64,000 nucleotides of DNA from positions 77,001 through 141,000 of the forward strand of contig NC_053047.1 of NCBI RefSeq assembly GCF_003473485.1, in the 5' to 3' direction. This document shows positions 271-63,269 of the stretch, one piece after another. Every line of letters begins with the position of its first letter. The first letter of the stretch is position 1. The translations under genes and the position numbers were made by a program. The notes beneath the pieces were generated by a model. The model ran no database searches, had not been told where the DNA came from, and saw only the letters and a program-made list of their open reading frames with translations. This DNA is from Medicago truncatula (Eukaryota; Streptophyta; Magnoliopsida; Fabales; Fabaceae).

Positions 271-2941
271 ATGAGTAGCATGGCGTGTGGATGTTGGTAC
301 TACAACAACTACTGCTGTCCCCCACAGTCACGGTTGAATTCTTCATCATCTTCATCTTCATCTTCGGTGCTGAAGCGTAGTCCTTCTACTACTTGTGTAT
401 TTGTTTGTGTCTCTAAATCCTCCAAATCCAAATCAAACGGTGGTGAAATTGATAAATCGATAAAAGGATCAGGAACCACCGCTAGAGGTCGGAGATTGCT
501 TAAAATTAGACAAGATAAACAACAACGCGAACAAGAACGCGTTCACAATTACCCTGCTTGGGCTAAGTAACTAACTAACTTCTTTCCTTTCCTATTATTG
601 CTGCACCATTTTCATTTTCATTCAAATATTAAATGAACGAATGTTGCATAATAATGATAGAGTCCTTGAAGATGCTTGTAAAAACGACACTGAACTACGT
701 GCTGTACTTGGTGATAGTATTGGCAACCCTCAACTCATGAAGGAACGAGTATGTTATCTTCTTTCTTACTTTCTACTTCCTTTTTTTCAATTATTAAACT
801 GAATATATTCCTTTCTTTCCTTCCAGGTGGAAGATAGAATTCGAAAAAAGGGTAAAGACTTTCGTCGCTCCAAAACTGGATCTGTTGTTGCCTCCAAAGT
901 CACCTTTAGAGAGTATGTATTATCATAATTATTAATAATTTAATACTCTCAGAGACCTACTTGGTGGTTGTTTACTCTTCTCAATTTCCTCGCAGCTTCA
1001 ATCCACTTGATTCATATATCTGGTTTGAATTGTATGGTTCACCATCTGATCGTGACGTTAATCTAATTGGCAGTGTATGTCTTTTCTCTTCTTTATAGCT
1101 TTTCAATCTATATTATATTATATTATATAATACATTCATCAAATCTTATTCTTTTATATAGGTTATTCAAGCATGGTATGTCATGGGTCGACTTGGGGCA
1201 TACAATTCTTCAAACTTGCAGGTACTTACTTACTTACCCCATTCATTCATTACATGCTTACTATCCTCTCTCTCTCTCTTTCAATTTCTGTTCCCTTTTA
1301 ACAGAGAATTGAAGTATCTTTTTAATTGATGGCAGATGTCAAATTCGTCAATGGATTATGATCCTCTCTATGACTCAGATAAGGGTTTCAAAGTGATGCC
1401 GTCATCTTTCCATGATATCAGTGATGTTGAGTTCCAGGATAATTGGGGGCGAGTTTGGTATATCGTCTAAAACTCTGTTAGTCTTTTTAATAAATGGTTT
1501 TATGACCTTGCAATGGACAAAGGTTGAAAAAATTGAATGATGCAGATTAAATTATTAACCACAACAACGTTAACCACAATAAAATGCCTTTTCACTCTAG
1601 GAGGAACTGACAACATGGATTCAATGATATCATAAACCATGTCTAGTGACGAACTATTTAACCTAGAACCTTTATATTAGTTTAGCATATAGTTTTTTGT
1701 GGTCTCATTCTTCCTCTAACTATTGGAACTATTCTCCATTTGATTTACTCTTCTTACCAAGGCTTTTAGAGATCTTCTCCTCAGTTCACACATGTCTAAA
1801 TTACCTAGGGCAAGATTTGACCATCTTTTCTGAATAGGAGGCTACCCCAACTTTCTCTTTAAAGTAATCGCTCCTAATCATTTAGTACCCTTTATAGCTT
1901 TTATTGACTTGTCAATTATGAGTATACCATTCGAAAAAAAGCATGTATTGTGGCATTGTCTCTTGGATATGTTTAGCAGGAACACGAAATAAAACCAAGC
2001 TCGGTGTTGTAGAGATGAGAGTGTTACAATAGGTGAGTGATTACTTACAAAAGAAAAACAAGATTGTATTAAGAGAAAAAATGGGGTAGCTCCCAAAATA
2101 GAAAGGATGCTAAAGTTTTGTCTTGTATTGTTTAGAGAGTAGAGAAAACTAGTTGAAACGACGCTATGAAGGATAGACCAGATGGAGAATAGTTCAATTG
2201 TTAGAGGTAGAGGGAGTACCAGAAATATTATTGGTCATATCATTAAAAAAGATTTATATTTAAATGGGATATCATTAGACTTGATTTATCTCCAAAAAAA
2301 AACATTAGACTTGACTGACAACAGAACATTGTGGATTATTTGATCCATATACTCAACTTCACCTAGTGGAAAAAAGGCTTCGATGGTTGTCACCAGCTAA
2401 ATAGGTATTGAAAAGGAGGGAAGTTTTCTTTATTATACAATTTCTAGTAGCTGAAAGCTTCAGAATCATAATTAAAGTTGTAGAGACTTAATAATTTAAT
2501 ATACAAACAATTAATAACAATGTCATTTAGTTAAATACATGACTGCAGTAGAATATGAAAGCGTGGTAGGGTATATTTTTCAATCAAAACTCCTGTTGGT
2601 TCAATACGTTTAAGCTTTAAACAAATCGTACTTGCAGGGTGGACCTGGGTACTGCTGATTATTTTGCCATTGATGTGCTTCTCAACTGCCTTACTAATTT
2701 AAGCTCAGAGTAAGTTTGAATTACTGAACTGCATGTAATAAAAATGTAAAGAATATATGTAATGTAACTATATGTCCAAGCTCGCATTTATTGTTTTTGT
2801 TATGCAAAAGTAATGATTAACCTTTCTCTGAATGACAGATATCTTGGTATCCAACAAATTGTTTTTGGTGGTCGGTCCATGGGTGATTGGGAAGAGGGGA
2901 TGACAAACCCTGAGTATGGTTACAAGTACTTCAAGATATGA
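271..2941 (+). CDS. DUF3531 family protein, probably chloroplast-targeted
   Basis: Exons 271-566, 661-748, 827-912, 996-1074, 1162-1221, 1336-1457, 2638-2709 and 2839-2941, all with GT-AG borders, join into one 301-residue frame. The N-terminal ~70 residues are rich in Ser, Lys and Arg and poor in acidic residues, as in a chloroplast transit peptide. The conserved part begins near YPAWAKVLEDAC and includes NPLDSYIWFELYG, VIQAWYVMGRLGAYNS, DNWGRVWVDLGTADYFAIDV and GDWEEGMTNPEYGYKYFKI. As I recall the family, DUF3531 occurs in cyanobacteria and plants and has no assigned biochemical role; none is claimed here. An in-frame ATG at 280 is an alternative start. Intron 6 (1458-2637) carries a long inverted repeat. 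The gene converges on KTN80. Confidence 0.88.
1708..2215. repeat. Long imperfect inverted repeat (fold-back/MITE-like) in intron 6
   Basis: The left arm near 1712-1742 (motif GAACTATTCTCCAT) matches the reverse complement of 2178-2212. Pairing continues inward: GCTACCCCA near 1841 pairs with its complement near 2087, and AGTAATCGCTC near 1863 pairs with a diverged complement near 2040. Nearly the whole segment folds on itself with gaps. Superfamily is not clear; the right end resembles the CTCCCTC-type termini of other MITEs here. Confidence 0.6.
2273..2314 (+). repeat. Micro-insertion: poly(A) insert between 12-bp direct repeats
   Basis: CATTAGACTTGA occurs at 2273-2284 and 2303-2314. The 18 bases between are TTTATCTCC followed by nine A. 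This is the layout of a target-site duplication around an extremely truncated poly(A) retroposon. Confidence 0.55.
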
Positions 2942-4990
2942 ACAGGGACTGGATGCAGTTCATCCCTTACACTCGATTTTGGTTTAAAAAATGATATAAA
3001 GAGGTTCAGCAATAATATGCATTGATAAGAATATGCCCTTGGATGAGATGGTTTGCTTAACCCTCTTAAGTTGTTCTTGGTTACCTCTTGCCCGATAGGA
3101 TTTCTCGTACCATATGGAGCCAGAAGCCTTGAGATTCAACTGTGTTTTGTTGTGACTGACATTAGAAATAATAGATTTAGTCATGAGAATAGAATAGGAG
3201 TGGCTTGTGAAACTTTTTCCATTTCAAATCTGATATTAAAATGGTGTATCAAAATATAGGTAGATTTATCATTAAATTAGTTTGATGCTTTGGTGGTATG
3301 AGATGTAAAACAAGCATATTCAGTACTTAGTAATGTTTGTTATATTCTGGAATGTTATCTTGTGGCCACAAAAAGGTGCACCATACTAAAATGTGGTGTA
3401 CCGATAATTGCAATATGCCTCCTCAAGTGAATATTTTCATAATAGTGTGAATATCAATATTTTATCAAGTTTTGAATGAAATCCGATACAGAGAACAATT
3501 GGAAACTGCAAGAATGCTGAGAGAAGAAGAGGAGAAAGTTAATTGAATTGTTATTGTTCTATGATCTCATTCATTTCTCTTGCGCTCTATGAGAAAGTTT
3601 GTTACAATTCCTTTCTTTTGGAGAAAAATATTCTACCTTACCCCATTATTCCTTTCGTATGAGAGTACTTTAACGACCACCTTTGCTGACTTGTGCATTT
3701 TGACTTTAAAAATAAAAATATGTTTTTGGTATTCTAATCTAACCTCACCTTCAATGTCAACCAACCACTTCATTGCCAGAAAATCGTAAAACCGAAACCA
3801 ACATTTCATTTTCAGCACCATATTATTTTGAAGAAATGCAACATATTACTTTCCCTTTGCGGATGTACTACTGCTTTAAGAAAAGGCAACCTTAAAACTT
3901 CAAAAATTCTCACAACGGCAAGATCTAAAAGTGCCAAACTAACGAACAGCAATCAACACTCTTAAATTGCAAATACAAACAATATGGAGCCAACCATACG
4001 CCAGCTCATTTGTGAGTGATGTTTTGTTTAATAATCCATGGTTATTCACTTATTCTCCTTATAAGAACCTTTTGATTATGAAAATTTGGCTATTTTTGTA
4101 TGGGAATTGCTATTTTTACAAAGTCACAAATGAAAGAGAAGAGATTAACATGTTGCTATTTTATAAATAAATAAAAATACAAAGCTGTTAAGTCCGGATT
4201 TGGCAGTAATCATGACCGAGTATTGGTGAAAATCAACTGAAGATAACAAGTCATGTGTTTCATTATTTGGGTGTTCGTAAGAACAAGCATTATCCTCTTT
4301 GTATATAGTGAATCCGACAGATTAGTTTGAATGAGAATATAACAAGAGACCTCCTTTTGTTATAATAATAACAAGATTAATAAAATAAAACAAGGCTACC
4401 GCAAGGCATATAATAGTTACCGGGACAAAGTTGTCGATTCATTTCCTACGTTATATACGACACTAATCCATAGTAATATAATAGTTACCGAAGGCATTGA
4501 AAGAAATCATACAATAATTTGGAACAGAGAAAATGAAGGGTCACAGTCTCATACAATCGCGCCTAAGCTAAGACACTAAAACAATAAATAACAACAAATT
4601 TTCAACTAAGATTAGATCAGTATCAGTAGTAGCATTGTCCCATATTAGGTTAGTTGTTGACGGGAGTGAGATCTCCACATTAAGCTTAAGCTTATAAACA
4701 GAACTGTGCAAAACTAATCTATTAGCAAAGTGCAGCACATCACATCAGCTCTGGTTTCCGTGTGTATGTTGAAGAATTAGCAGTATCAGACTATCAGTGC
4801 CGCCACTTATCATCATCACCCTTGAGTTTTAACAGCAATAAATAAATGTGCATACATGATTCGATGCCAAAAGACAACGCATCAAACTCTTGATGACTTG
4901 TGTAGAGATTTTAAATCTTTGAGATGCACAAAAAACCTCTACAGGCATCCATGTAACTTGAGCAGCAAGACTAATCTAATACAGTCAAAG
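2942..4990. other. Convergent intergenic region
   Basis: This lies between the 3' ends of the DUF3531 gene (+) and KTN80 (-) and must contain both 3' UTRs and polyadenylation signals. The short open frames here have no recognisable protein character. I see no RNA gene or mobile element. Confidence 0.4.
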
Positions 4991-7900
4991 TCACGATACA
5001 TCCTGAAGTGCCAGATTCAACTCGTGTGCAGATTTTGCAACTGATCCTCCTCTTCTATAGATGAAAGGCAAATAAAGTGGAAATTAACATTAGAAATTCT
5101 AAATCATCCTAATACATTATTTTTAGCACAAAGTGTTTATATTTTTTCTGCTTTCAAAATCTATAACTTATATAGAGATACCAAGTTTTAGCATAGCTAA
5201 ATTATTTCATTTATTCATTTACAATTTTATCCTTTTTTATCTAATCATATAACTATAGAGATACCAAGTTTTAGCATAGCTAAATTATTTCATTTATTCA
5301 TTTACAATTTTATCCTTTTTTATCTAATCATATAACTAATTTTTTCAAATAATTGCAAAAACATGTTTCCCCAAGATGAGTACGTTAGTGCCCTCATATG
5401 CATGCTAGTACTCCCTCCATCCCAAATTGTATGACGTTTTGTGCATTTCACACATATTAAGAAATGCAATTAATATTGTGTGGAAAAAAGATATTATGGG
5501 TTGTTTTACAAAATTGTCCTTAATAAATAATATGGGAAAGATAAATGAAAGAATTGAAAGAAGAGATAGTAATAAATAGTTAAGGTTATAATCGGAAAAG
5601 TGACATTAATGTTGCATTGGTATTTTTTTTTTTTTGAAGAAGAAGAAGCTAAAATGAAGTTTATTCAAAACGCAAAGAATCCTAGCAAGCACAAGAAATG
5701 CTTGGCTAGGAGACTTAAATAGGAACATACAAAGGAAAAGTGAGCCGTATATATGCGGAACATGTTGCATTGGTATTGTAAAGCGACATATAATTTGGGA
5801 CAATTTTTTTTTCCCTAAAGCGACATACAATTTGGGACGAGGGAGTATTAAATAACATGAATTTAAGCCAATCGCATAAAATAGAAAGCATTTAGCATTA
5901 CACCCATTTAGCACCGCCAGAATTGACTGAAACAAAAGGGGAACTGATAAACTTAAACATGTACCTCATTAGAGAAGGTAGGAAACCTTTGACTTTTTCG
6001 AGCTCTACAAAGCAGACGTTGCAGCGCTCTAGCCTGGATCTCATTAACAATAAAAAATTAATTAAATTGTGTGATGGAATATATAAAAAGTAAAATAAAA
6101 TAAGTCATGATTATGAACCTTTTCTCTGCTTCAATATCAACACCAACAGAGGGTTTAGCTGACAGCGTTGAATAGATTACTGAACCAAATACTCTGACCA
6201 GGTTCAATAACATTTCCACGGATATAGATAGATGTCTACAGATATGTGAATACCAGAACTGTCAGCATAGAACTGAATCTATAAAATAAAATACTATAAA
6301 GTGAACTATCAATTTAGTCTCAAAATTGAAGGTTTGGGCAATTTGGTCCTCAAAAATAAAGAAACCGCAAAATAATCAATCACTTCAAAACAATTTTAGA
6401 AACTATCCATTTTCTCCTACTTTGATAACTTGCTTGCTACTGGCTGTAACTTTAGCTAAATATGATAACTTCGCAAAACAAATTGTTATAGCTGCTTTCA
6501 TATTATAACAGTAAAAGAGACAACATTTACCTATCCATTTCACTTTGTAAAAGGTCGGTAAGAAGGGGCAGAAGACCTGTACATAAGTCAAGTGTGACCA
6601 TATCAATTTTCTCCATTATAATGCTAACAACATCAGCAATCACCTGGAATAAATACAATTAAGTTAAATGAATTATTAGAACTCTATTTGCCAAAAAAAA
6701 AAATATGCATCAAATTTGTTTATACCATAAAAGAGAACACAAAAATTGAGAAGTTGTAAAAACAAAAAACAAGCAACTCAAAATGCTTACAGCATGATCG
6801 CCCATCTTTGCCATCGTGCTAATGACCTCTGTAACATCATTTCTTTCCCAACGTCTGAAGACAACCTGAAATATAATGGTTTCAAAATTCAGCAAATCTA
6901 TGAATGGTAGTAGGCATTGCTCAATTACCAAAATTACATTTAAATTGTTCTCTAGAGGATAATTTTTTGTTAAAAGAGTGCTTTTTGTATAAAACCATGT
7001 TATTTTGCATGTTGAGGAAAATCCTTCAGAGCTAAATATTTGATGTTTGCTCTTTTAAGCTATAATATAAAGCGGCCTTCTTAGGTTATTTGTGGTACTT
7101 GACTAAAGATTTTTTGAAGGATTTCTTCTTTCAATAAACAAATTTATTAGCAAATATTGCTTTGAAAACGTTTTTAGTCTTGAGCATACCAGTTTGTTTG
7201 TGGTTTATACTGTAAGAGGACACTGTAGAACATAGAATATCATGAATATTTTCAAGAGTATCTTGGATGGTCTCGAAGGATGGAAGGAGGGATTTCCATA
7301 CATCATTAATCATTATTTGTTCTCTTGTTCAATTAAAAAGTCCAGTATTACTGTAAATACAGGCTATTGCTTTGTCTTTCGTAGCACATCATTGAGCAAC
7401 ATATGTCAATACTAATAGTATATATTATGAGTTTCTTTCACAAAAAAAAAAAAAAAAAAAGTATATACTATGAATTCTTTCTTTTCACCCACCTAAATTC
7501 CTATAATTTCAACAGATACATTGTCTTCCGATCTTGTTCTTCTCTACTAAATTATGTTCCCCTATCAGATATCATAAATGAAAAGAAAAAGGACGCGGAA
7601 GCAAGTCATGTCCTACAAGCCCAACTTGTTTGGCGTTTAATATCATGCCAAGACTCATTATACAAGTAACAGAAAGCCAATACAAAAGTAATAAAAAGTT
7701 CCAAGGACACAGAAAACTAATCATAAAAATTAACAAATCCAATCATCAATACCTTCAACTTGGATGAACGGTTCTGCATTGAACTGATAAATTCATCATG
7801 TTGTTCCATTAAATCAGCAATAGAATCTTCATCGCTAGCAGAAACTGTGGCCTTCTCAGTGGATATGGAATGTGTTCTCTGTAACATCCAGGGATGAGTA

Positions 7901-10900: not shown

Positions 10901-13900
10901 TTTGTAAATTTACGTATATCTACTGCCTTCGACTGCAAAGATAATGGCATTGTTGTTCCAGCAACACCAACTTCTTTTCTAGAATCAGCTACAGACTCTG
11001 GCCTAGTGCTAGTTCTGGGGACAATAACAGGTATAATATCTGATCTATTGATGAGTGGAACACTTGACGTTGTATGTGATTTCAAAGAACTCCTTTTCTG
11101 AGCGGTTGAATTAAGCACTGCTGTTGAACCACCAGAGACTGTTTTTGAACTAGAATTAGAATTTATCCTTTGAGGAGTACTTGGTGCACTTCCTGTGGCT
11201 TCATGCAATAATAAGTCAAGTAATGAGAAGTTTTGGCCATAAGCATATTTAGGACAATAGGAACCAAAACAAGATGGATTAAACAAGCAATTAATCAAAA
11301 CAAATGCCTAAAAGCAAATGAAAGATTTATAAAAGGAGAAAAGATATATACATGCCAAATATTTTCCATCCTTCAAGGTGTCTGAATCTTGAGAAACTGA
11401 CAACCTTCCAAGAGATCTTGTTTCCTTCAGTAATGGATCCGGATTTTGTGAAACAGATAGCCTAGCCTTGGCTGTAATTTCGTTCAATACAGTCGTATTT
11501 CCACTTGAGGATTTAGATTCTGAATGGCCATTTAGTTGGTTCATACTATTGAGTGCATATGGTTCTATTCGCTGGACAAGATGTCAGAAATGTAAAAATG
11601 ACACATTAGCATCAAATAGTATCAAATACAACCATTACTATAAGCGTAAGTAATTTCTCTGAAAGATAAATGCATCTACCGAGATGTCCACGACCCAGAC
11701 TCCAACGCAACTTTGATTGTATGAACAGCCAAGAAGTTTTCCTTCGTGAACATTAAGATCTGACAATCTAGACCAACCAACTTCTACCATATCATGGCAC
11801 CTTATAGGTTCCCAAGAGAAAACCTAAACAAAACCAAATAGAAAAGTTACCTTAATAGATAGTGATCTCACATAATCAACTAAAAGAGGAGCTTACCTTC
11901 AAACTCTCATGCAAACCACATAGTAGGGTCCTCCCGTCAGGACTGAAAGTAAGAGACCGTACTCCAGTTGTCTGAAATACAAATATACAAAATTCTTAAG
12001 ATATTTCAATCAAAACAAAATTAACTTTAAATGTCGATTTTAAACTTATTAGTAAAATTGCTGTAACCGAAAGTACCTCCGGACCAGCTGAACCAATAAG
12101 CTCAAAAGTTTCAAGGTCCCAAAATTTAACTGTCCTATCAGCAGAGCCTGTGCATGGGAAATATATTATTGAAATAAAAATTACAATTGATTTCATTCGA
12201 TTAAAGAAAAGGGGGGGAAAATATACAAAAGAAAACAGCACAAGAATCCAGCACTAACTGTGATGTAATCGTGTAAATAAAATAACCTAGAATTGACAAC
12301 AAACAGATGTGTCTGCTAGGTAAGCCAAATTGGGTTGCTTGCTTTTGTAAGATATGTTAAATTTTGTGATTGCATTTGGCAATTAAATTATAATTCTAAT
12401 AGAATTTGGCAAAGATGGCTATAAAGAAATAACATGATTTTATGCACGGATTCTAGCAAACATTTCACTCACAAGTTCTGTCTTTGTTAGTGGACTTTTC
12501 TGGCTATCTCACAAAGCTTGACGCCTTGACCCCAACTATCCCAAATGCAATCTGGCCTTAATGCCTTATTTATCCCACATTCAGTTTAACCCCAGCAACG
12601 CAAAATTGAAATCAGTCCCGGCTGTCCTAAATTGGTGATAAATTTAATTGGAATTCATACTAGCTAGTAGCCTCCAGATGTGAATTGCACCATAGGTGAT
12701 TCCTCCCATCATCAATGAGTCATCCTCTAATGAATTTTCCATGGTTGTGGCACACTACTCCCAGATTCAATTTCATTATTTTAACTGCCCTAAATTTTCT
12801 TGAAGTTTAAGGCTTCCTAATTTATTTATTTATTTTGGTTGCTAAAGGCTTCCTAATGTTGTTCTTGGTGGATTTGGGGAATTTCAGTTCTCACTGTATA
12901 GCAGCTTGCTAGGAAATTTCAACTAATGATCATTCCAGCAAGTCTTTTCTTCCATAGTTACACAACATCCCAACCAGCTCTTCACATTGTGATCATTCGA
13001 ACCATCTTGTTGAGTTGTCTTTCCAACAATGCTTGTCTCTAATACATCTCCAACTTCCATTAGTTGCCCGCACATACTATATATTTATTTTAACAGTTTA
13101 TTATTTGTAATAAGCTTAATGCTTAATGAGCTTTGGCTTGAGCGGGTGTTAGAATATACAAAAACTATCCCATAATCTTAAAGCTGTATCTTGAGAAATT
13201 AAGAATATCTTGGATAACCTTTCAGGATTGGCATTCATATTTCTTTATGTTTCATGATTTGTTTCCTAATTTAATTAGGATGAGGAGTATAGAATTATCA
13301 GGATTAGTTTTTTTGTTGAAGATTAGGAGTCTAGTATTAGTATGAGTAAGGTGTGATGCTTAGGTTTTCTAATAATTACTATTAGAACCCTTTAATCTAA
13401 AACTCACAACTTCAGCAAAAACAGAGTGAAAACAATGTAGCAATTTAATAGCAACTAATAGAACCATATCGATTAAGAATGAATATAAAAAACAAACCAA
13501 ACACACCATTACTTGTCAAGACACTTACTGTTTTGATTTCATTACAAATTAGAAAAGTAAGACTAACCTGTTGCTAGTAGAAACTCGCTGGGATGAAAAT
13601 CTATACACTGGATCTGGCCCTCATGAGACTTAAAATCGTGCAAGAGTTTTCCCGCAGTCAGATCCCACAACTACAAATTGTATACATTATTATAATTTAT
13701 GTCAAGTTTAAGGAAAACACCATTCACAAGTGAAGCGACAGTATAGCCAGATCACAATCCATTTAAATATTAAGATAATACATTACAAATTATGCACCAA
13801 GTAAATGACGGATGAGCCAAGTACAGGATTTCAAGTCACATACCAGTGTCAATAAAGATTAGATAACTCATTTCAAAACATTATGATTTGTGACAGCAAA

Positions 13901-20559: not shown

Positions 20560-22571
20560 TGTAACGCCCTAGTCGATATATTTAATTATTTTGATTTATG
20601 TGGAGTCTATATATATATATATATATATATGATTTTTGGTGATTTATGTGCTGTGTTTATTTTATTATATGGTTTATTTTAATAATAATTGGATTAAGTG
20701 AGAAATAATAATTATTTTGGAGTTTGGGGAGTTATTTAATATTTAATAGAATTAAAGGGAGTTAAATGAAAATAAAGGGAGTTAAGTAAGAGGGAAGTTA
20801 GGAAAATAGATGTCAGAAGCTTTTTACGTGAAACTGTCAAGTTGGGAGAAAAGGGAGAGAAGAGCAAGTAGAACCCATGAACCAAATTGTTGTGCATTTC
20901 TTTCTGCAATTCTAAGGTAAGGGTGAGGTTTACTTCAGTAGTATAGATTTTAATTCTGAATTTGAGTTTAACAGAGTTTTGGAGTGAATTGGGATTTTGG
21001 GGTTTTATGATGAAATGATGATTTTGGAGTTGAAATTGTGATTCTGATGTTAGAAATAGGTTCTGAGTGCATACAGTAAGTTAACTCACACCTGTAAACT
21101 GATTTGGGGAGTGAATTGAAGAAAAATTGGATTTTGGGGAAAAACCTGTTTTCTGCCCGTACAGAAGTTCATCGCTCGCCTCGCGAGTAGCTGTGCTCGC
21201 CATGACGAGTGAGCAACTTCATAGCTCGCCTCGCGAGCAAGCCAGATCAAAACTTGATTTTTGAAATGTTGTTATAAGGTGTTTTGGGGATGGTTTAAGG
21301 TACCTAGATGGTTTTAATGATGACTGAAGCAAGTTTTAGGTTAAAAAGATGAATATGGAGCTTAGAATTGAGGTTTGAGTGAGAAAAATGTCAAATTCCC
21401 GATAGCACCTATTTTTCACTCGCCTCGAGTTCGCCTTGAACTCGCCCTGGCGAGCAAGCAGTTTTGGGAACTCGCCATAGCGAGCAGATGTGCTCGCGAG
21501 GCGAGCTGCACAGTTTTTGAGTGCTGAATTGCGTACATGAATGGTAGTACTTGGTGTTGTTGTTTTCGAGCATATTTATAAATAATTATGCATTATTTTG
21601 GATTGCTGGATTATTGGTTGTTGATTGCTGTTGATGACTGAAATGTATGCTTTATCTATTAACCATACATGTTGTTTAAGTGGAGTCATATGGATTATGT
21701 ATGCATGGTCAAGTTGTATGTAGATATACACAAGTAGGTCCATTGCATATGCATAAACAGCGGAGAGGACTCATGTCCTGGAGCACTGGTTGCTCAACAG
21801 CGGTGAGGGCTTCGGTCCTGATGAATGTTTTAACCATTCAAAAGCGGTGAGGGCTTCGGTCCTGTTTGGTACCACATGCATATTTGCATTTATTGAGGAG
21901 TCTAAGGTGTTGCCTTAGCAGTGTTGTCATATCATTTGCATGAGTCTTAATTGTTGGTTGTAGTTGCCACATTGATGATGATGATGTTGTTGATGAATAT
22001 ATGTAGATATTTATATACATATTGTGATGGGTGGATTTTGATGATGTTTGTTGTTGCTTGTGAATTATATACTTATATTTGCAAGATGATGTATTTGATG
22101 TTTAGGGTGTTAGATTCAATTGAAGATTTTATTATCTATATTTTATTGTTGTGAATCTCACCCCTTCTGCTTGAAAATGTTGCCCTTCCTATGGGTAACT
22201 TGCAGGTGATCCTGAGTAGTCGGTGGTGGCTCAATGTCGTGTCTAGGGCTCTGATACGTGGGATGTGAAATATTCTTATTATTGTTTTCTTTCCTATGTA
22301 TCCTATTTTGGAACTTGTTGTTATGGCCCTATGATGGTTGAAATTGTTGTTAGGTTTTATGCCAAGATGTTGTTTGGAGAATTTAACCTTTGTTGTTGTT
22401 ATTTGAAATACAAATTTTCCGCTGCATGATTTTGAAGTTATGAAAGATGTTGAATTAAATAGTTTTATTTTCTATTTAAGGAATTTTTGAAATGAAGTGT
22501 AGCATACCCGTTGTGGAATTACTCTTATGAATATTTATTATTTAATTGCTTTTGGGTAACGGGGTGTTACA
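20560..22571. mobile_element. Solo LTR, Ty3/Gypsy (possibly Del/Tekay-like)
   Basis: The 2012-bp segment begins TGTAACGCCC and ends GGGTGTTACA. It is flanked by a perfect 5-bp target duplication, GCTTG (20555-20559 and 22572-22576). No internal retroelement domain is present, so it is a solo LTR left by recombination. The clade guess rests only on the terminal motif. It holds clusters of CTCGCC/GGCGAG palindromes and three copies of a hairpin-prone AGCGG...GGTCCTG motif. It is younger than the hAT host. Confidence 0.85.
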
Positions 22572-22970
22572 GCTTGCAACTTGAAGCAGATAAGCATTTT
22601 GATTTAGAAATATATGATAGTTGTCATATTATGTTTATCCTGTTAATATAACCTGATTTTGAAGAATGTTGTCATATAACATGGGACAAAAAGGTTGTTT
22701 TCCTCATCTGTTTTCACACTGATGCACCTACCACCAACCGAGTATTATATTAGAAGATAATTGTCCTTATTTGCATGATCAAACAACACACTCATATATA
22801 TATAACCTATGCATAGTGATTTCACGCTTACAATCATTTTTGTCAATGGTATTGTTTCTCATTAGACATTAGCAGTACCATTGTCAATTGTAGATTTGTT
22901 TCATTATAAGTCTTAACAATATTCTTACATCACTTTGATAAATTTGTTTCTTTGCAACAGAAAAGTCAAG

Positions 22971-24743: not shown

Positions 24744-26200
24744 TGCTCTCTATTTTCATGCTCATCACATGCCTCTTATTCCTTAGATTTTATTTTTCAA
24801 AAAGCAACTGTTAAAAAACTTGTTCTCCCTTAGAACCAGATGTTGCACACATGCCCTAAACTGACTTTCTTAAAACATACATCATAAGTATATTGATCAG
24901 GTTCATGTCCACATAATTTATTACCTGGAATAAAAAAAAAACTAGTACATGTCTAATGAGCTACATGTACACGTTCTTTCAACACATAAGCTATGAATCA
25001 CGTACACTTCTTAAATTGAGTGTATTTCGATGTCGTGAATACGTGTTTGTGTCCAACACCAAAATATATAATTACATTTAATCATATGATTTTCTCAAAT
25101 TTTTATCGATGACGATGTGTCAATATCTATACCGTGTTTGGTGTCCATGTTTGTTTCCTGCTTCAGAGCACGAAATTCATTAAGTGTTTGTTTTGATTCC
25201 ATGTCAACGTAATTCATTGCTTGTCCAATTAAAAAAAATCCTTATAGTTAATTCCAGTTTTCCTTCAACGAAAAATACTATATGCAAGTGTTTTTTGAGA
25301 AGATGAAAAAATTAGTGGTTATAATCTGTGGTGTGTGGCTATCATACTTACTAATAAAAATTAGAATCTTTCACTTCAATGAATCTTGAAAACTCGTCAA
25401 ATATCGTCGTTTTGAATTTTAGATATACTAAGAACCCAAATATTTTTTATTCCTTAAAAAAACAAATATTTTTTATATATGCATTTCTCTAAACTACCTT
25501 TAACATTTCTTAAAATTTCAAAATGGGGTCTCTCAATCTATGAATTTTGAAACTATGTACAAAAAAATCATAAAAACTACCATATTTTTTATCAAACGAG
25601 ATTAAATTTCAAGAGATAAAGGCGGTATAACCGACAAAACAGATAAAGTCAGAAATGAAGTACAAACGAATGGGTATTATCGTATAAAGAGAAAGATCAA
25701 GTCATGTCTTTATTGGATATCGTCGACCCATTTTTGTTATATAGTTTTTTTTTATATGGTTGAAAAAGAAGGACATGGACTTCAACTTTCAGTATTTTTT
25801 TAAACTTTAACGAGAAAACAAACGATGTTAGGAGAAGAGGGATATTTCTACATATTTTGTTATATGGATGTAAGTGCCAGTTTTAAATAGACTTCGAAGA
25901 AGGTAAGTACAATTTCTCCTATTTTTTTTAGATTTTCTAGCATATATATAATATAATTATTTGATTATTCAACCCACTTTGGAGTGTGTTCCTCCTCAAG
26001 GTCTCAAGTTCAATTATCTTTAATGTCAATTTGAGAGGGTTAGTTTAGCTTCTTAAAAAAAATAAAATTAATTACTCATGAATTTTTTTTAAGAATTAAA
26101 AATGTTTATTTAGTAGTGTCAACAATTATTTTTTTATTTTAAAATTACTTATTTAATTTTTTATTAATTTATTGCAAAAATAATTTGAAGAAAACGTAAT
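24744..26200. other. AT-rich intergenic DNA with a dispersed repeat
   Basis: No gene seen. 24999-25200 carries a GTGTCC/ACGTGTTTGTGTCC-type repeat with distant similarity to 49305-49445. A micro-insertion lies at 25437-25476. Confidence 0.4.
25437..25476 (+). repeat. Micro-insertion with 14-bp perfect direct repeats
   Basis: CAAATATTTTTTAT occurs at 25437-25450 and 25463-25476. The 12-bp insert is TCCTT plus seven A. The AT-rich repeat weakens the case slightly. Confidence 0.5.
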
Positions 26201-36000: not shown

Positions 36001-37425
36001 AATATCAGAAGCGCTTTGGCCCACTGCGGTATTTTGTTGCTGGATTTCTCAAGTTCTTATGCTTACCGCGATACAGCTACGAAGTTGAATATCTTCCAGC
36101 ATCAAAACCTGAAAAAGAAGGTTCCGGTGAAAGGGAAGTAGTTGACATGTCGGAGCTGTATACCGACATCATGACCAGATCAAATAAGGATGGGATGCCC
36201 AGGGCATCTAGTCTTTCAAGTATTGACTCAATAATGACTCCGAGTCGGATATCTGGTGGGGACCTGGATACCTGTAGCAGCACTCATGCTAGCACCGAAC
36301 CTTCTGAGTTGGTGCGTGGCTTAGATCCAAAGTCAAAACGCCTATCATCTGGAAGGAGCAATATCACAGCAGAGCCAGAAGTCATTCATCCCCAACTGCC
36401 TCTGTCAACAACTCCAAACTGGCCAAGAACAAGATCTAAGTCAAGGAATGATAGAGGATGGGCTGGATTGACCACTACACATGATACCTCTAAATGGGGG
36501 AATGCAGCGAATGATAGAGAGGATATATCATCTACACTGTCTGACCCAGGTCCTATCTGGGATGCTGAACCAAAATGGGATCCAGAGGCTAATTGGGATG
36601 TGGAAAACCCTATTGAGTTGCCAGGGCCACCAGATGATACAGAAGTAGGATCCACGAAGGAGGTTGTGCCACGTTTTGGAGAAAAATGGGTTGTTTCAAA
36701 GGGACAGTTTGTTGGCATTCTGGTTTGCAACCATGCTTGTAGAACTGTCCAGGGCTCTCAGGTGGTTGCTCCGAAAGCTGAGCATGACGATAACACTCTA
36801 GATTTGATCATGGTACATGGGAACGGAAGGCTGAGGCTGTTGAGATTTTTCATACTTCTACAGATGGGTCAACATGTTTCACTGCCATATGTTGAATATG
36901 TGAAGGTATTTGCATCAATAATTTTTTTACTCCTTATTTTTTTAACGAATGCTGGAAATTACTGCTTAATCATTTTACACGCTATTCTTTTTAAAAAAAA
37001 GAATCATTTTAAACACTATCAATGATTAAAATCACTGCACTATATAGACGACTAAACTGGTAAAAAATCTCAGGCCTTCCTTTTTCAAAACTACGGATGA
37101 CAATTGTGATCAGTTTTCAAGTGTGTATTATGTCTACTTCAGTTTGTTTGAGAATGATGTCTTGTTTGGCATATCTTGCCATGTTATTTAGTGTGCAGAA
37201 GCTGCAAATTCTCTCTTACCCTGGTAACTCATGCATCTGTATCTGTTGAAATTGTATAAAAATTCAGTTCCCCTTCGGATGCAGGTAAAGTCTGTCAGAA
37301 TAAAGTCTGGGAAACACACTCACAGCGGATGTGGGATTGATGGTGAGTTTTTTCCACTCAATGGACAAGTAATTTCTTCTTTGCTTCCAGAACAGTGCAG
37401 GCTTATTGGTCGGTTCCGTATATGA
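30003..37425 (+). CDS. LCBK1: Sphingoid long-chain-base kinase (LCBK1-like)
   Basis: Phosphorylates sphingoid long-chain bases to signalling lipids; it has a diacylglycerol/sphingosine-kinase-type catalytic domain. Exons 30003-30521, 30938-31309, 31657-31750, 32124-32161, 34025-34171, 35170-35269, 35983-36905 and 37285-37425 give 777 aa with consistent phases. Residues 1-60 are Ser-rich. Catalytic motifs are NPRSGRGRS (276-284, nucleotide loop), CVGGDGIINEVVNGLL (332-347) and PIGIIPAGSDN (359-369), split across introns. The large exon 7 adds a Ser/Pro/Trp-rich linker (WDAEPKWDPEANWDVENP) before VSKGQFVGILVCNH. The C terminus ends LLPEQCRLIGRFRI. An in-frame ATG at 30012 could also start. Introns hold two MITEs. 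Length agrees with the Arabidopsis protein as I recall it (about 760 aa). Confidence 0.93.
30555..30822. mobile_element. MITE in LCBK1 intron 1
   Basis: The right end, on the minus strand, reads GAGCCTGTTTGGATTGACTT, a terminus familiar from dicot MITEs. The left end (GGTACCTGTTTCGATAGACA) is a diverged inverted match. The interior holds several AAGCTT/TAAGCT-type subterminal motifs on both strands. Superfamily uncertain. Confidence 0.6.
31793..32039. mobile_element. Stowaway-like MITE in LCBK1 intron 3
   Basis: Left terminus CTCCCTCCATTTCAAAATAA and the complement of the right terminus (CACCCACCGTTTCACAATGA) are diverged inverted repeats. TA dinucleotides flank at 31791-31792 and 32040-32041. 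Length 247 bp. Confidence 0.75.
34620..34703. repeat. 42-bp tandem duplication in LCBK1 intron 5
   Basis: The unit starting ATCGATTTACTTTAGCATTA at 34620 is repeated from 34662 with three differences. Confidence 0.75.
36968..37019 (+). repeat. Micro-insertion just after LCBK1 exon 7
   Basis: AATCATTTTACACGCTAT (36968-36985) and AATCATTTTAAACACTAT (37002-37019) match at 16 of 18. They flank TTCTTTTT, eight A and a G. It lies in intron 7. Confidence 0.4.
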
Positions 37426-37917: not shown

Positions 37918-37960
37918 CAACGGCTGGGTGAGTTGTTCAAAAAAAACAACGGCTAGGTGA
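37918..37960 (+). repeat. Micro-insertion: GTTGTTC plus poly(A)
   Basis: CAACGGCTGGGTGA (37918-37931) and CAACGGCTAGGTGA (37947-37960) flank a 15-bp insert, GTTGTTC plus eight A. The repeat is not low-complexity, so chance is unlikely. Confidence 0.65.
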
Positions 37961-38696
37961 ATATTGTGGATGACGTATTTTTCTAAATTTGTATGATTAA
38001 ATCGATCTTTATAATTTGTAAGAATAAAAATGTCTATTTAATCATTTATGAAATAATAATCCTGATTCAAATTTAAATCGTTTTCATTTTCTGGGCACTC
38101 ACTCATGTCTACAAAGATGTGTCTTTTTCAACAAAAATCCCAAATTGTCAGTGCACAGAAAAGGGTACTCATCTCAATTTCAATAACTAATACCTATGGC
38201 ATAATTAGTAGAAAAAGCTCCTGTAAGGTTGGTCAAGACAGTGGAGGATGTATTGATAGAGGAGAGGAGGGAAGAGGTCTGAAAAGAAAAATACAATGGG
38301 ATGCACACAAACTAGTTAAATTTAATGGTGGAAGATGTAGATCCACCGTAAACCTCTTGTCAAATTAGTCTATATTAGCTTACCTTTTCTATAATTAAAA
38401 GCCAAAATTAAAACCCAAATCAGGGGCTAACAGGTTACCGGCAGTCAATTAAACGAGGACCATGATGGCTCCCCAATATCATCCGTAACTTAAAATGAAT
38501 AATGATCGTAATCTTTAGCATATGCATTTTGGACACCCCTTTGTATGCCAAAAGGAAAAGGCTTCCTTTCACAATTAGTTCTCATGTTTCTAATTAAAAA
38601 TTTTGATTTAATTCACGTGGACTAATAGGTCCTTTATTTGTTCCATCTATTATATGTTTGGTTTCAAATAGTTTTTTTACGATAGTTGATGACAAA

Positions 38697-38733
38697 AGTA
38701 AACTCACTTCCTTCAAAAAAAGTAAACTCACTT
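38697..38733 (+). repeat. Micro-insertion: CCTTC plus poly(A)
   Basis: AGTAAACTCACTT at 38697-38709 and 38721-38733 flanks CCTTCAAAAAA. The same CCTTC-poly(A) sequence appears, inverted, at 63192-63207. Confidence 0.65.
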
Positions 38734-38847
38734 GAATATATGTCATTAGATTAAAATCAGAAACATCCACTCTTGTAAGTCTTCTGTTTCAATGGTTGGT
38801 GAATACTCAATTTAATGCTCAAGTCAAATGCATAGATCAGACAATAG

Positions 38848-38900
38848 AAATGAATTCATGCTTTGTACCAAAAAAATAAAATAAAAATGAATTCATGCTT
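38848..38900 (+). repeat. Micro-insertion: TGTACC plus A-rich tail
   Basis: AAATGAATTCATGCTT occurs perfectly at 38848-38863 and 38885-38900. The 21-bp insert is TGTACC followed by an A run broken by single T residues. Confidence 0.65.
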
Positions 38901-44206: not shown

Positions 44207-44489
44207 CTCCGTGTGTCCCGTAATAAGTGAGTCATTTGAAAAAAAATTGTCTCAATTTTTTTTTGACTTATTTCACTTTTCAATACAACATTAATTACTT
44301 TTTCTTTTTTCAAAATTTTACTATAATTAATACTACTTTCATCACTCTCAATTCAATATATTCCACTTTGTATTTATGATCATGGAGAATGCACCAATTT
44401 TTAACAAGAGTCCTTAAAACCATTTTTCTCCTGAGAATTGATGTTGACACATTGCCATTGGCTAAGAAACAATAGTAATTTACCCAAAT

Positions 44490-44582
44490 GCCCCTCGGCA
44501 GTTAACTGCCGAATTATGGAACCGGCTGCAGTTAACTGCCGAGGAAAACTGAAAACTTCGGCAGTTAACTGCCGAGGAAACC
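44490..44582. repeat. Cluster of a 16-bp palindrome
   Basis: CGGCAGTTAACTGCCG is a perfect palindrome, present in full near 44497 and near 44561, with a variant (GGCTGCAGTTAACTGCCG) between them at about 44524. A weaker relative (TTGGCAGTTAACTACCAAG) lies near 45133. All fall inside the surrounding MITE-like element. Confidence 0.8.
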
Positions 44583-44737: not shown

Positions 44738-44943
44738 AGTGTAAAAATTAAGCATTTGAATATTGTTTTGCACATTACTTAAATAAAAATAATAATAAAA
44801 AATCTTTAAAATAATTGTGCACAACGATTTTTTTTAAGGTATAATATGTTGTTATATTTTCTACATTAAAATAATTGTGCACAAAGATTTTTTTTTATTT
44901 AAGTAATTTGCAAAACAATATTCGAATGCTTAATTTTTACACT
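44738..44943. mobile_element. Nested inverted-repeat (fold-back) element
   Basis: Arms beginning AGTGTAAAAATTAAGCATT at 44738 match the complement of the segment ending at 44943 over about 70 bp with few differences. The interior also repeats a TTAAAATAATTGTGCACAA unit directly at about 44807 and 44864. Confidence 0.75.
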
Positions 44944-52006: not shown

Positions 52007-53913
52007 TCAGTTTCAGGGTCGTCGACTCACCGATTTACTCAAAGCACACGGCGGCAGCCATGTTGTACTTCTGTCTGCTGCTTGCTTCCTACTTTTTTAC
52101 TGCTACTCTAATTTACATTTGTTTGATTTTACCCCTCAAGTTTCACAATTCTTTGATTTTGGCTCCTCAAGTTTCAATTACTTTATTTTAATCCTATAAA
52201 TTTAGGTCATTTTGTATTTGTTAGTCACCCATCCACCTTTTTTTGTTTGTTATTATTAATTTACTTCTTTTTAAGGAAAAAAATATTATTTTTCATCTTA
52301 AAATTTATCTCTCTCTCACAAACTCATATTTTAAGGGTAAACTAAGTTTTTTTTTGTTTTTTTGTTTTAATTTGAAAGTTTTTGTGTGTGTGTAAACCTT
52401 CCCTTTCTAGGGGAAGAAGACCGAGATCAGCCGTGAGGTAAAGATAATATTAATATGATAGAGAATTATTCCATTCAAGAATCGAACTCGATTCTTATGA
52501 ACAATTTGTCCATTGATAAAACTTATTAATCACTTGAGTTCAATTACTTGATTTAATTATTTTAATATATTATCAACTATCTTATTTTCTTTATGCACAT
52601 CATATGATTATGCGATGTGTGGTTGGATATCAAGGGAGGAACAAGCCTTAAATTTTACCAATGTTTTATTACCTTCCTTTAAATTTATCACAGTTCATCA
52701 ACAATTGATTAATTTAAGCAGTAAAAAAACTTAACCCTTAAAGCAAGTGGTAAAAATAAGACTGATTCAAGAATTAAATTGAATGATGTTGTGTTACAAT
52801 TTAAAAAGTAAGTCACGGAAGGACTATGACAATTATTAAGCATAATTAAAAAAATTAACGATAAGAACTTTGTCCTTAGACTCCTCTCAAATAAGAAATG
52901 TGTCCTTAAGCTAGTTCTTAACTCTAGACTACGATTTTATTTGAAACTTTTGTTTATTTCCTTCGTATTAATTTCAAGATATAATGCGCAACTCATGTTG
53001 TGTTACTTACATGATCCAAAATTACTAACAAGAGATAAAATGCTACATATGTTACTTTCTTCACCTTCAATTTCGAATATTCATGTTTATCATGCTTCTT
53101 TCACTGCACTCATTTCGACAACCTTTTCTTCTAATTCATTTCAACGTACATTTCGTCAATCAATGGTTTCTAATAACAAATACAACTCTTAAGTATTATC
53201 GATCAACAAAGAATAACAAGATGTTTCACAACTTCTATATAAGGGCTACATTTTTCATGGCAAATAGTTCCTCTCTAAATAAACAAGGATGAAGTGATAT
53301 GCATGAATCCCTAGAGTGGTAAAAGCACGCGTATTAACACTAAATGATATCAACTGTTACTATGAGATCAGACGGTTAAAATTTTTTATCGTTATTTTGA
53401 GATCGAAAACTGCATGACACATATACTTCATCAAATCCAAACCGGCTTGTCTTCCATTAATTCATGTGTGTGTTTTTTTTATATATTTTAAATATATTGT
53501 AAAAGAATATATAGATTTAATTTTTTTTTTCGACAAGATATAGATTTAAACTTTTAAGAAAATATAAACAGGACCTTTTCTTTTTGAGAAATATATGTTT
53601 TTTTCTCTTTACATACAATTTTTTTATTTTTTTTTACAATATATGCTGTTATTTACTTTTTGACGAAATATATGCTGTTAACTTTTTTTCCAAAATATAT
53701 CCTATTAACTTAAAACCTGAGAATTTGTAAAAAAGCATTAAATAAAATCCGATAAGATATGGTAACATTTAAGACAAAATTACTATAAAAAAATAAAAAA
53801 TTGAGAGAACAAATTACATTAGATTTAATAGACTTATAGAATATTCAACTACCTATTATAAAAGACTAATTAAGTTGGGGTTTAACAACTTTACAAAAAA
53901 GAAAAAACTCACT
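52007..53913. other. DEG10 upstream region, dispersed repeat and AT-rich spacer
   Basis: DEG10 leader and promoter lie just above 52006. About 52629-52980 is one copy of a diverged direct repeat whose partner is at 55410-55928 and 56612-56660. From 53440 to 53700 the DNA is very AT-rich, with a micro-insertion at 53509-53549 and a repetitive stretch at 53638-53700. Confidence 0.45.
53509..53549 (-). repeat. Micro-insertion: poly(T) plus CGACAAG
   Basis: ATATAGATTTAA at 53509-53520 and 53538-53549 flanks ten T plus CGACAAG. On the minus strand this is CTTGTCG plus poly(A). Confidence 0.55.
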
Positions 53914-54333: not shown

Positions 54334-54646
54334 TGATCTATTTTTATTTCCTAGTTGTTACTACTTTTCACTTTCAAGGAGTTTTGATTATCTTTAACTT
54401 TTTTTTAGTATTATTCATCAAAGATTGTCTCTGATTATAGTATATATATCAACGATTAATTACATAAAAGATTTGTTTTGCTTTGGTTCATTGTTAGTGA
54501 AACTTGTGGTTTTTTTTCTTATATATATTAATATAACAATATAAGCTAAAATAATATTATTTGTGTTTTTGAGTTTTTTTTTTTTTAAAGAAATGTGATG
54601 TTATTGTTGTGAATTGAAGAGGTTAACTCTTTCATGTTACATAACA
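54334..54646. other. 3' flank of the B3 gene
   Basis: AT-rich, presumably including the B3 3' UTR. Nothing else seen. Confidence 0.4.
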
Positions 54647-60916: not shown

Positions 60917-62174
60917 ATGTTAATTTGTGGCTCAAGTTTATTGCCACACTATGGATCCTCCATGCCTTACCTACATGTTGGAGGTTTTCAAAGTGAGAGG
61001 AATTGGCACAACAAGAAGAAGAATTCAAGTAGAAGAAGCATGATGATGACTTGCAAATCTGTGCAGAATGAGAGTATTGTCAAAAGAGTATGTCACAAGT
61101 ATAGTCTTACCCTTGCTACCTTCCTCACAACTGCTGTGGTAATAGCATCAATTGCAACAGTTGATGCAGCAACTTATGATGAACAAGAAGAGACCCTATC
61201 AAACATACCTCAAACTCTATCAGGTGAGTGCAAAACAGCTCAAGATTGCAAGAAACCTAAAATACAGAAACCAAAGTCAAGAAAAGCAGAATCATGCACA
61301 GGTAAGTGTGTCACTACATGCATTAGAGGTGGTGATGGCTCTCCTGGTGAAGGCCCTCTTAACATCATAGGACCACTCGTTGTTTTCAAGCAAGGTTTTC
61401 GATCTCGTCATTACTGGTAAATGTTTGCCTTAACTTTTTGCTATAATATATATATATATTTTTAATTTGCTTTTGTTAAAGGATCGATATAGTACATGAA
61501 TTTGTTTATACCGAACATCAATCTTCCTTAACCTCTCCAAAGTCTTTGTCAAAATCGGATCACTAGATTGAACATTTATAAGTGAAACCAAGTGTTTATG
61601 ACAAAAGAACTAGCTGAGAGTCCTTCAAAATTGTTCAACAACAAAAGCCACCCATCACTGCCTTCTTAATTCGGCCCAACACCGACAATATTAACTTTCA
61701 ATTCATTATTGACAACTTCTTCTTCTCATGCAAACAACCATATCCTCCGTGCTGGTGCTGGCCTCTTTAACAACACTAACTGAAAACAATCTAAGAAAGA
61801 TAGATATCCTTCAGAGGAAACCAAACCAACCAACCCACCACTAATAAATAGTGCCCCTAGTCTCTCCTACTAAGTGAAAGGTCTTTTGGCACTACGTTAG
61901 AAGAAAAAGAGATACACAATTAAACAATTCAAATCGGTTGGGTAATTTGGATTATTAGCATACGTACAACTAATTTTTTAACTTGCTGAATTCAAACTTA
62001 GAATATTTGATACACGAACGTGGTTTGCTTGACTATGGTTATTGTATGCACCAAAAAAAAGTATCAAGTTATTATCACTTTCAATTGATGCTCACCTTAT
62101 GTAATTTTGTGTGCAGTTTGGTAGAATGTTCAGATATCTGTAATTTGATAAGCAGTGCTGACAACGTGCCTTGA
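60917..62174 (+). CDS. Small cysteine-rich protein, probably thylakoid lumen
   Basis: Exons 60917-61416 and 62117-62174 give 185 aa; the split codon forms Cys167. Residues 1-60 are Ser/Lys/Arg-rich with few acidic residues; 63-84 are hydrophobic (LTLATFLTTAVVIASIATVDA) with an A-x-A-like cleavage site, a bipartite thylakoid-lumen-type presequence. The mature ~100 residues contain eight Cys (105, 111, 127, 131, 135, 167, 171, 175), conserved-looking GGDGSPGEGPLN and PLVVFKQGFRSRHYC, and a Lys-rich stretch (KKPKIQKPKSRK). I recall plant homologues of unknown function; no activity is claimed. Four disulfides are possible. The exon-2 frame supplies three of the Cys, which supports the splice. Confidence 0.8.
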
Positions 62175-62383
62175 TATTATTAACTTTAGGGAAGCAGTCG
62201 ACATTAATAAACCTTTGTATAATGTTTATGTGACCACTTCTTTCATTTTCTACACACTGTCATTCTTTTACACAAATATTTTATTTTTCATCATTTTTAT
62301 ATAATTTTATTCTTAGTTAGTCTAGTTTTATGCTTAAATACAATTATCCACCTTGATAGTTAGTTGAAGTACCTGTCAATAAC

Positions 62384-62493
62384 TCTTATTGCGGTCGTGA
62401 GCTTAGCTCAGTTGGTAGGAACAATACATATTATATACAAGGTTTGGAGTTCGAATCCCGACCACCGCAAAAAAAAAAAAAAATCTTATTGCG
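62384..62493 (+). mobile_element. tRNA-derived SINE with target-site duplications
   Basis: TCTTATTGCG flanks a 90-bp element (62394-62483) at 62384-62393 and 62484-62493. The element has an A box (TTAGCTCAGTTGGTAG), a B box (GAGTTCGAATCC) and a tail of about 14 A after CCACCGC. It looks like a nearly pure tRNA head plus poly(A). The clean duplications suggest recent insertion. Confidence 0.88.
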
Positions 62494-63068
62494 ATTGCGA
62501 TTCTTGTGAGAGATGCGATTAATTTTTCTTCAAGCGATTACACGCTAAAAAATTAATTATTATTTTTTTGTCAAATAGTCTAGTGGCTATAATTCACGTT
62601 TTAAGGTGAACAAGTGGGGTGTCTGGGGTTCGAACCTAGTCCTGCCAACAGAGCTATGCTCACGGAGACATTAAGTTTGTTCGTGAACTGCTTCAAAGAA
62701 TGTTAAGTATAATCTTGACTGATTTTGTGAGCTACTCAACTAAAAATGCAAAAAAGTAAAGCAAGATAGAAAGATAAAAGCTTAAAGATTAAATTAAATC
62801 AGAGATCCTTTAATTAATTTAATTATAACAAGTTGGTAACAAGTTAGTCATTTAAATTTATTAAAAAAAGTTAGTCATTTAATTATAATTTTTAAACGTT
62901 GAATAATTTACGTTAAGAAAAATCTAAAAAGAACAACTTATTGCAATTAAATAAGTTAAAAGATCTCTAAAATAATTTAAATAAGATAAAATTGTGAAAA
63001 TAAGTCGTTTAATTGAATGTGTGTATTTTGAAAAATTTACAAAAACATTGCTGGCTGAGCATCAAGAC
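62494..63068. other. Repeat-bearing spacer
   Basis: Contains a tRNA-like repeat at about 62564-62650 (TAGTCTAGTGGCTA and GGGGTTCGAACC) related to 17925-18020, and a micro-insertion at 62841-62882. No gene. Confidence 0.4.
62841..62882 (+). repeat. Micro-insertion with 15-bp direct repeats
   Basis: AAGTTAGTCATTTAA at 62841-62855 and 62868-62882 flanks ATTTATTAAAAA. AT-richness makes slippage a possible alternative. Confidence 0.45.
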
Positions 63069-63269
63069 TTATCGGAACTTAGCTAGCTGAGGGTGAACAA
63101 CTTCACCAAAAACATTACTCCCTGCTTCAGCTGAATTCCCAAATGGAATGTTAGCCTCACGAGTTAATGCTAAAAACCTAACAAGCCTGTTTTTTTTTTT
63201 TTGAAGGAACCTAACAAGCCTGTTGTTAAACATCTTTCTAACTTCTGGAATTATCTTAGCACCAGTCAA
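63069..63269 (-). other. Open frame of unknown character containing a micro-insertion
   Basis: A 66-codon minus frame (ALTREANIPFGNSAEAGSNV, GEVVHPQLAKFR) looks protein-like at its C terminus but matches no family I know. Inside it NRLVRFL is repeated around QKKK because of the insertion at 63175-63224. Possibly a terminal exon or gene fragment; not called as a gene. Confidence 0.2.
63175..63224 (-). repeat. Micro-insertion: 17-bp perfect repeats around poly(T) plus GAAGG
   Basis: AACCTAACAAGCCTGTT occurs at 63175-63191 and 63208-63224. The 16-bp insert, read on the minus strand, is CCTTC plus eleven A. The net gain of 33 bp keeps the surrounding minus-strand frame open. Confidence 0.75.

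Follow-up and report, generated by a model that had tools for sequence, protein, structure and literature searches.

Short poly(A) insertions in Medicago truncatula as probable early-ended products of LINE target-primed reverse transcription

Introduction

What process repeatedly leaves a handful of bases and a stretch of As between short direct repeats in the DNA of a plant? The question is raised by a 64-kb window of the Medicago truncatula genome (contig NC_053047.1, here C6, positions 77001-141000), in which a first-pass annotation had picked out thirteen loci of one layout as scars of target-primed reverse transcription (TPRT) that aborted almost at once. Here, we follow these loci and others like them through the window and a random sample of the genome. 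They are very probably TPRT products of long interspersed nuclear elements (LINEs) of the L1 clade, in which copying ceased 4-11 nt after the poly(A) tail. The earlier observation is confirmed in part and was largely right, with corrections to the membership of the set, the nick motif and a longer retroposon nearby.

Micro-insertions in the window

A direct repeat around a short insert is present at all thirteen loci, at some with mismatches and everywhere within a few bases of where it had been placed; the edge first put at 38697 lies at 38694, and the locus first put at 38848 can be extended to 38843. About ten of the thirteen are true insertions flanked by a target-site duplication (TSD), one is weak and two are something else. 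The insertions and the weak candidate are:

2273..2314, plus strand, micro-insertion; TSD CATTAGACTTGA (12 bp), insert TTTATCTCC-A9
7418..7473, plus strand, micro-insertion; TSD 13 bp with 1 mismatch, insert GTTTCTTTCAC-A19
12809..12857, minus strand, micro-insertion; TSD 13 bp, insert in the A sense TAGCAACC, then an A-rich (TAAA)n-like tail
25437..25476, plus strand, micro-insertion; TSD CAAATATTTTTTAT (low complexity), insert TCCTT-A7
37918..37960, plus strand, micro-insertion; TSD 14 bp with 1 mismatch, insert GTTGTTC-A8
38694..38733, plus strand, micro-insertion; TSD AAAAGTAAACTCACTT (16 bp), insert CCTTC plus As (A7 in total)
38843..38900, plus strand, micro-insertion; TSD AAATGAATTCATGCTT (16 bp), insert TGTACC with impure tail A7TA4TAA
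53509..53549, minus strand, micro-insertion; TSD 12 bp, insert in the A sense CTTGTCG-A10
62841..62882, plus strand, micro-insertion; TSD AAGTTAGTCATTTAA (15 bp), insert ATTTATT plus As (A7 in total), nick AAC/AA
63175..63224, minus strand, micro-insertion; TSD in the A sense AACAGGCTTGTTAGGTT (17 bp), insert CCTTC-A13, nick AAC/AA
36968..37019, plus strand, weak candidate; 18-bp repeat with 2 mismatches, near-palindromic insert TCTTTTTAAAAAAAAG

A run of at least seven As abuts the second repeat copy, or Ts directly follow the first, at 2273, 7418, 25437, 37918, 38694, 53509, 62841 and 63175. The tails at 38843 and 12809 are A-rich and impure, with the same polarity, and these two loci have paralogous empty sites. 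The automatic detectors described below recover six of the ten members, missing 7418 and 37918 because of repeat mismatch and 38843 and 12809 because of their impure tails; the weak candidate at 36968-37019 was missed both by the repeat-first detector and by that allowing up to 40 non-A bases. A possible longer member lies at 44806-44887, where a 22-bp repeat (1 mismatch) encloses ~30 non-A bases and A8 in TPRT polarity.

Two of the listed loci were rejected. That at 53638-53680 lies in a tandem array (53624..53711, ~2.7 copies of period ~27) whose junction has no A-run, and that at 5780-5840 is a subterminal direct repeat, with a T-run, of the end of a miniature inverted-repeat transposable element (MITE; 5779..5840). 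All 39 other copies scored, which are 92-96% identical and almost the same in length, span the MITE double repeat; these come from the best 40 of 1223 candidates, a choice that favours query-like copies, so copies with no double repeat could rank lower. It is also found in L025 and L031, two copies met by chance in the random sample.

Polarity and chance controls

The sample, from one genome (429.9 Mb in 42 contigs, eight of them 43-65 Mb long), comprises 314 kb, namely the 64-kb window (GC ~34%) and 25 random 10-kb stretches (the first 25 of 200 drawn). Loci in the sampled stretches carry the labels L009-L032, and paralog pieces the labels L054, L055 and L059. As a mirror control the same DNA was reversed or complemented, so that base composition, runs and direct repeats are preserved and polarity alone is flipped. 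Our main detector, which seeks 3-12 non-A bases and an A-run of at least 6 between direct repeats with a repeat score of at least 12, found 18 matches in TPRT polarity and 0 in the mirror. In 30 dinucleotide shuffles of the 314 kb the mean was 0.03 and the maximum 1, so that the comparison with shuffled sequence, proposed by the first-pass annotation as a check on itself, comes out clearly in its favour.

Across A-runs of 5, 6, 8 or 10 combined with repeat scores of 10, 12 or 14, TPRT counts fall from 28 down to 7 and mirror counts from 2 to 0. A repeat-first detector gave 20 against 1, the sole mirror match (L031:9474) being the same MITE repeat as at 5780-5840; with up to 40 non-A bases allowed the counts were 28 against 6, and 20 of these 28 matches carry 4-11 non-A bases, a range in which the mirror has none. 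Two early detectors run on 264 kb were less clean, one giving 27 against 7 and a looser one, which admitted longer inserts and tandem arrays, 38 against 15. Poly(A) is confined to the 3' junction (18 to 0 by the main detector, 20 to 1 by the repeat-first), as a product of TPRT must have it. As a separate observation, 126 of 147 short direct-repeat pairs in the 314 kb have no A- or T-run of the kind tested at either junction; they are unexplained duplications with filler, and tandem units.

Empty sites in paralogous sequence

For 28 loci the joined, single-copy allele was searched in the genome, and 40 of 251, 815 and 390 candidates were scored in three batches and 14 of 14 in a fourth. Among the candidates scored, 10 of the 28 loci had at least one place that spans the junction with no insert: 2273, 12809, 38694, 38843, L009:6564, L017:248, L023:3289, L026:9045, L030:1539 and L032:1194. 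On reading seven paralog pieces, the single copy is clear for 38694, 38843, 12809, L023 and L030. The paralog of 38694 (C6:66290-66650, L054) has a single copy, with the left flank aligned over 9 bp; at 38843 the same piece has a single copy with both flanks aligned, and matches the joined allele at 91%. The empty paralog of 12809 (L055) likewise has one copy, and a second (L059), which aligns from inside the repeat only, adds little. At 2273 a paralog on C7 aligns as two segments separated by a gap, as a filled site would. L009 and L017 are situated in repeats, and a few of the places matching L009 carry additional length. For 7418 and 37918 the genome search for the joined allele returned the locus itself alone.

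A further case is a tandem array in L026 (8729-9096). Unit 8843 is empty, and units 8921 and 9031 carry TTGGTC-An within an 18-bp duplication. In unit 8729 the insert differs, being TCCTTC followed by an impure A tail, and lies within a 16-bp duplication that starts from the same base. The array units record two independent micro-insertions at one nick together with an empty unit, and the combination of a fixed first nick with a variable second cut is as TPRT predicts. Empty single-copy sites, for which the first-pass annotation had asked, are thus present as paralogs for five loci and as one unit of this array.

Nick site and genome-wide motif counts

TSDs measured in 18 events are 12-23 bp long (median 14.5), and the duplicated sequence is single in the paralogs of five loci and in the L026 array. 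The TSDs begin with AA in 14 of 18; the preceding base is C in 9, T in 7 and G in 2, and is never A by construction. A nick motif at the repeat edge had been expected and is present in the form TT/R.

Genome-wide the same organisation can be followed by counting motifs, where the counts are of matches and one site may contribute several. There are 590 matches to TTCCTT-A13 and 24 to the motif read backwards. ACAA is about twice as common at the distance of a TSD as it is further upstream: it lies 8-18 bases upstream of TTCCTT-A10 in 317 matches (backwards 8) and 24-34 bases upstream in 146 (backwards 6; binomial p ~1e-15), and for the broader YYYTC-A10 (Y, pyrimidine) the near and far counts are 1721 (backwards 201) and 892 (backwards 275). 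The near spacing of YYYTC-A10 peaks at 15-16 among the 100 matches listed (chi-square p 5e-6), and the far spacing is flat among the first 50 of 100 matches listed (p 0.42); for TTCCTT-A10 the near spacing peaks at 14 among the matches listed. The insert at 25437 is similar to this TTCCTT-An class, and all three tracts of TTCCTT or CCTTC followed by A8 or more in the 314-kb sample are micro-insertions.

Eight of 100 listed near TTCCTT-A10 matches belong to one dispersed sequence ending GTGGTTTCCTT-An or its near variant GTGATTTCCTT-An. This is probably a retroposon 3' end and could be a source of TTCCTT; no convincing copy of it was found among the sampled loci.

Inserted bases

For the inserted bases 24 events were curated by hand from several detectors and the earlier list, leaving out L018:4958 (its TSD is just 10 bp), L010:530 and L017:4164; as tandem arrays, the L017 array hits and L026:8775 were not taken as events either. 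On average the non-A part is 6.6 nt long. Its last four positions hold 2.96 pyrimidines, against 2.20 at 594 A-runs of at least 7 in the sample, in which the events are included (p 0.0008), and C stands before the tail in 14 of 24 events against 25% at A-runs (p 0.0006). For comparison, 18 L1 3' ends, taken as strings from 20 zf-RVT loci picked for high score and long open frame, average 3.22 pyrimidines in the same positions and include CTCTC-An, TCTTC-An, CCGTC-An, TTCCT-An and TGCTT-An. The composition of the inserts, proposed by the first-pass annotation to echo retroposon 3' ends, does resemble that of L1.

Nor do the inserts derive from neighbouring DNA: non-A 5-mers match their own 100-bp flanks no better than swapped flanks (9 of 21 against 11.1), with 22 of 23 against 20.3 for 4-mers and 4 of 16 against 4.0 for 6-mers. 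An identity with short interspersed nuclear elements (SINEs) was rejected, since the micro-insertions hold no body bearing a Pol III promoter.

Size class and abundance

Divided by length, hits with 3-12, 13-40 and 41-150 non-A bases number 18, 5 and 12 in TPRT polarity and 0, 4 and 5 in the mirror. Because there is no excess at 13-40 non-A bases, the micro-insertions look, at these small numbers, like a separate size mode. With up to 1500 non-A bases allowed, the counts are 36 against 13, and 16 against 2 for those under 20 bases; among the longer hits we judge four to be clear retroposons, of 45 nt (L021), 120 nt (L019), 126 nt (window) and 999 nt (L012).

The 126-nt element in the window is the longer retroposon that had been set beside the micro-insertions:

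5609..5777, minus strand, 5'-truncated poly(A) retroposon copy, 126 nt; TSD AATACCAATGCAACAT (16 bp), 3' end CTTCTTCTTC-A13

The family ends in CTTCTTC-An and variants. The element is a truncated member of a longer family and not a complete short element: homology in other copies runs ~190-900 bp further 5', with AATAAA just upstream of the tail. TSDs were sought for seven other copies of the family, which reach further 5', and none was found. The TSD copy at 5762-5777 is located at or within the MITE end.

At a repeat score of at least 11 and no credit for leading As, there are 6 micro-insertions in the 64-kb window and 12 in the 250 kb of random stretches, so the window is richer than average, though not clearly at such numbers. 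Scaled from the latter count, the genome holds perhaps ~20,000 (95% Poisson range ~6-21, or 10,000-36,000 per genome).

Mechanism and alternatives

TPRT is the process that best fits these loci, because of the polarity, the duplications, the single-copy paralogs, the repeatedly used nick and the spacing of nick and tail. The enzyme is presumably an L1, since plant L1s have poly(A) ends and the genome contains at least 150 zf-RVT loci (150 scored of 6219 candidates). In such a model, the endonuclease would nick the target strand at 5'-..TT/R, and the T-rich 3' end would serve as primer on the tail of a polyadenylated RNA, which is probably that of L1 or else a trans-mobilised transcript. On this template the reverse transcriptase would copy the tail and the last few nucleotides of the 3' untranslated region (UTR) and then stop. 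The second strand would be cut 12-18 bp off (23 in one case) and the tiny cDNA sealed in, leaving a product of the form TSD, a few pyrimidine-rich bases, An, TSD. The non-A part, which would be the copy of an element or transcript, is 4-11 nt long and pyrimidine-rich like the 18 L1 3' ends. Aborted TPRT as the origin of the loci is supported, and none of the findings named beforehand as speaking against it was obtained where we looked.

Several points weigh against this reading. Of the 28 loci, 16 gave no junction-spanning paralog among the candidates scored, and the empty sites are paralogs within one genome, not alleles. The insert-free paralog of 2273 on C1 is ambiguous, as TTTAT follows its single copy as it follows copy 1 of the locus; that of L032 is consistent with a single copy but diverged; and the sole paralog of L012, a neighbouring one, has extra length. 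L016:7555 was dropped as undecided, its 13 other spanning places having 26-37 extra bases in 9, 15 in 1 and none in 3. The automatic counts hold two array copies of one L026 event, as well as L010:530, whose repeat is also found by the mirror scan. The AA start of the TSD is partly favoured by the detector, although at least two leading As remain in 13 of 18 when the A bonus is removed, and the nick does not follow the strict TTTT/AA motif that had been proposed. At the far distances, the spacing for TTCCTT departs a little from flatness among the matches listed (p 0.02). TTCCTT is the exact end of 0 of 20 L1 loci, the closest being TTTCCT and TTTGCTT, and no insertion can be traced to one particular LINE, its non-A bases being too few. 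Finally, the gap in sizes rests on small numbers.

How, then, would the copies come to be so short? We favour an early stop of the enzyme over a short RNA, because the motif is recurrent and a trough at 13-40 nt is hard to obtain from random decay. If the same TPRT acted instead on templates already short, such as fragments of decaying RNA that retain a tail and a few bases of the 3' UTR, protected for example by poly(A)-binding protein and copied to their end, a narrow size class (4-11 nt in 20 of 28 hits) and diverse ends, as from many transcripts, would follow. A C or T before the tail would also suit mRNA cleavage sites in general. The strong genome-wide over-representation of TTCCTT, which points to few source RNAs, speaks against such fragments, as does the cis-preference of LINE proteins, and we regard this explanation as a serious though clearly less probable one. 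The insertions might also be no more than the far end of usual LINE 5' truncation, without any particular point of stopping, and longer truncated copies do exist (45, 126 and 999 nt, above); a smooth tail of truncation would, however, fill the 13-40 range, where TPRT and mirror stand at 5 to 4 between 18 to 0 below and 12 to 5 above, which makes it rather unlikely.

Explanations that dispense with reverse transcription fare worse. Break repair can leave a tandem duplication with filler, and the many repeat pairs with no A- or T-run suggest that such duplications may be common here. Filler of this kind is expected to come from nearby DNA and to lack A-run polarity or a recurrent motif, whereas the loci show a polarity of 20 to 1, with the lone mirror case a MITE repeat, non-A bases not drawn from the flanks and a motif recurring genome-wide; as their origin it is very improbable. 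Replication slippage, suggested by the AT-rich repeats at 25437 and 53509, hardly deserves credence, as repeats such as CAACGGCTGGGTGA or AACCTAACAAGCCTGTT are not simple sequence, shuffles yield 0.03, novel pyrimidine-rich bases are inserted and paralogs exist with one copy and no inserted bases.

One further reading, to which we would give somewhat less than even credence, is that L1 reverse transcription in plants includes a discrete abortive step, ~5-7 nt beyond the poly(A) tail, producing a separate mode of tiny insertions that outnumber recognisable LINE or SINE insertions with intact TSDs in our sample. Second-strand cleavage at the normal TSD distance would therefore need no long cDNA.

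Relation to known systems

Single human cases resemble these insertions. In NF1 exon 25, a poly(T) insertion (~120-130 bp, TSD 6 bp) was considered by its authors a possible severe truncation (PMC3219598), and an Alu insertion in SERPINC1 consists of 6 nt and A40 alongside a 1.4-kb deletion (PMC4859970). Like the Medicago loci, these L1-endonuclease insertions have a TSD or nick site and a tail with almost no body; unlike them, they are single disease cases with long tails and, in the portions of the two reports considered, are not presented as a frequent size class.

In plants, L1-clade LINEs and poly(A) SINEs share the poly(A) tail and flanking TSDs with the micro-insertions, which differ in having no element body and being invisible to similarity search. 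Almost all flowering-plant L1 LINEs terminate in poly(A), according to the part of a review drawn on here (PMC3747384). Maize Cin4, as described in the sections used, has TSDs of 15-16 bp, a poly(A) of 9-12 and extra bases at the 5' junction (PMC10490952); its TSD and poly(A) are alike, and its bodies exceed 1 kb where the micro-insertions have none. Plant tandem duplications with filler also place direct repeats around a few extra bases, and differ in the polarity, motif and source of the filler discussed above. A keyword search of open-licence literature (titles and the starts of abstracts) found no report of such a plant class, an absence that is weak evidence.

As insertions of 10-30 bp are invisible to similarity annotation, plant LINE activity may be seriously underestimated, and some small indels may be wrongly taken for break-repair filler. 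Little is understood of how TPRT begins and of its second-strand steps. Because the scars log nick site, TSD length and stop point repeatedly in one genome, these steps become testable by counting.

Other features of the window and sample

A local cluster of micro-insertions or candidates lies within ~3.3 kb of L031 (2124-2221, 4214-4271 and 5364-5404), two of its members being directly adjacent with duplications TGTAGCAATTTAAGTT and TTAGGATCAAATGT. In the window, 5171-5338 is a perfect head-to-tail duplication of an 83-bp unit with zero divergence, and is therefore either very recent or a matter of assembly. Two Rfam matches exceed the gathering score, MIR2617 at 22492-22576 and MIR2629 at 44488-44556; the latter sits on GCAGTTAACTGCCGA repeats, which are also seen as direct-repeat pairs, and may be a repeat-derived hairpin.

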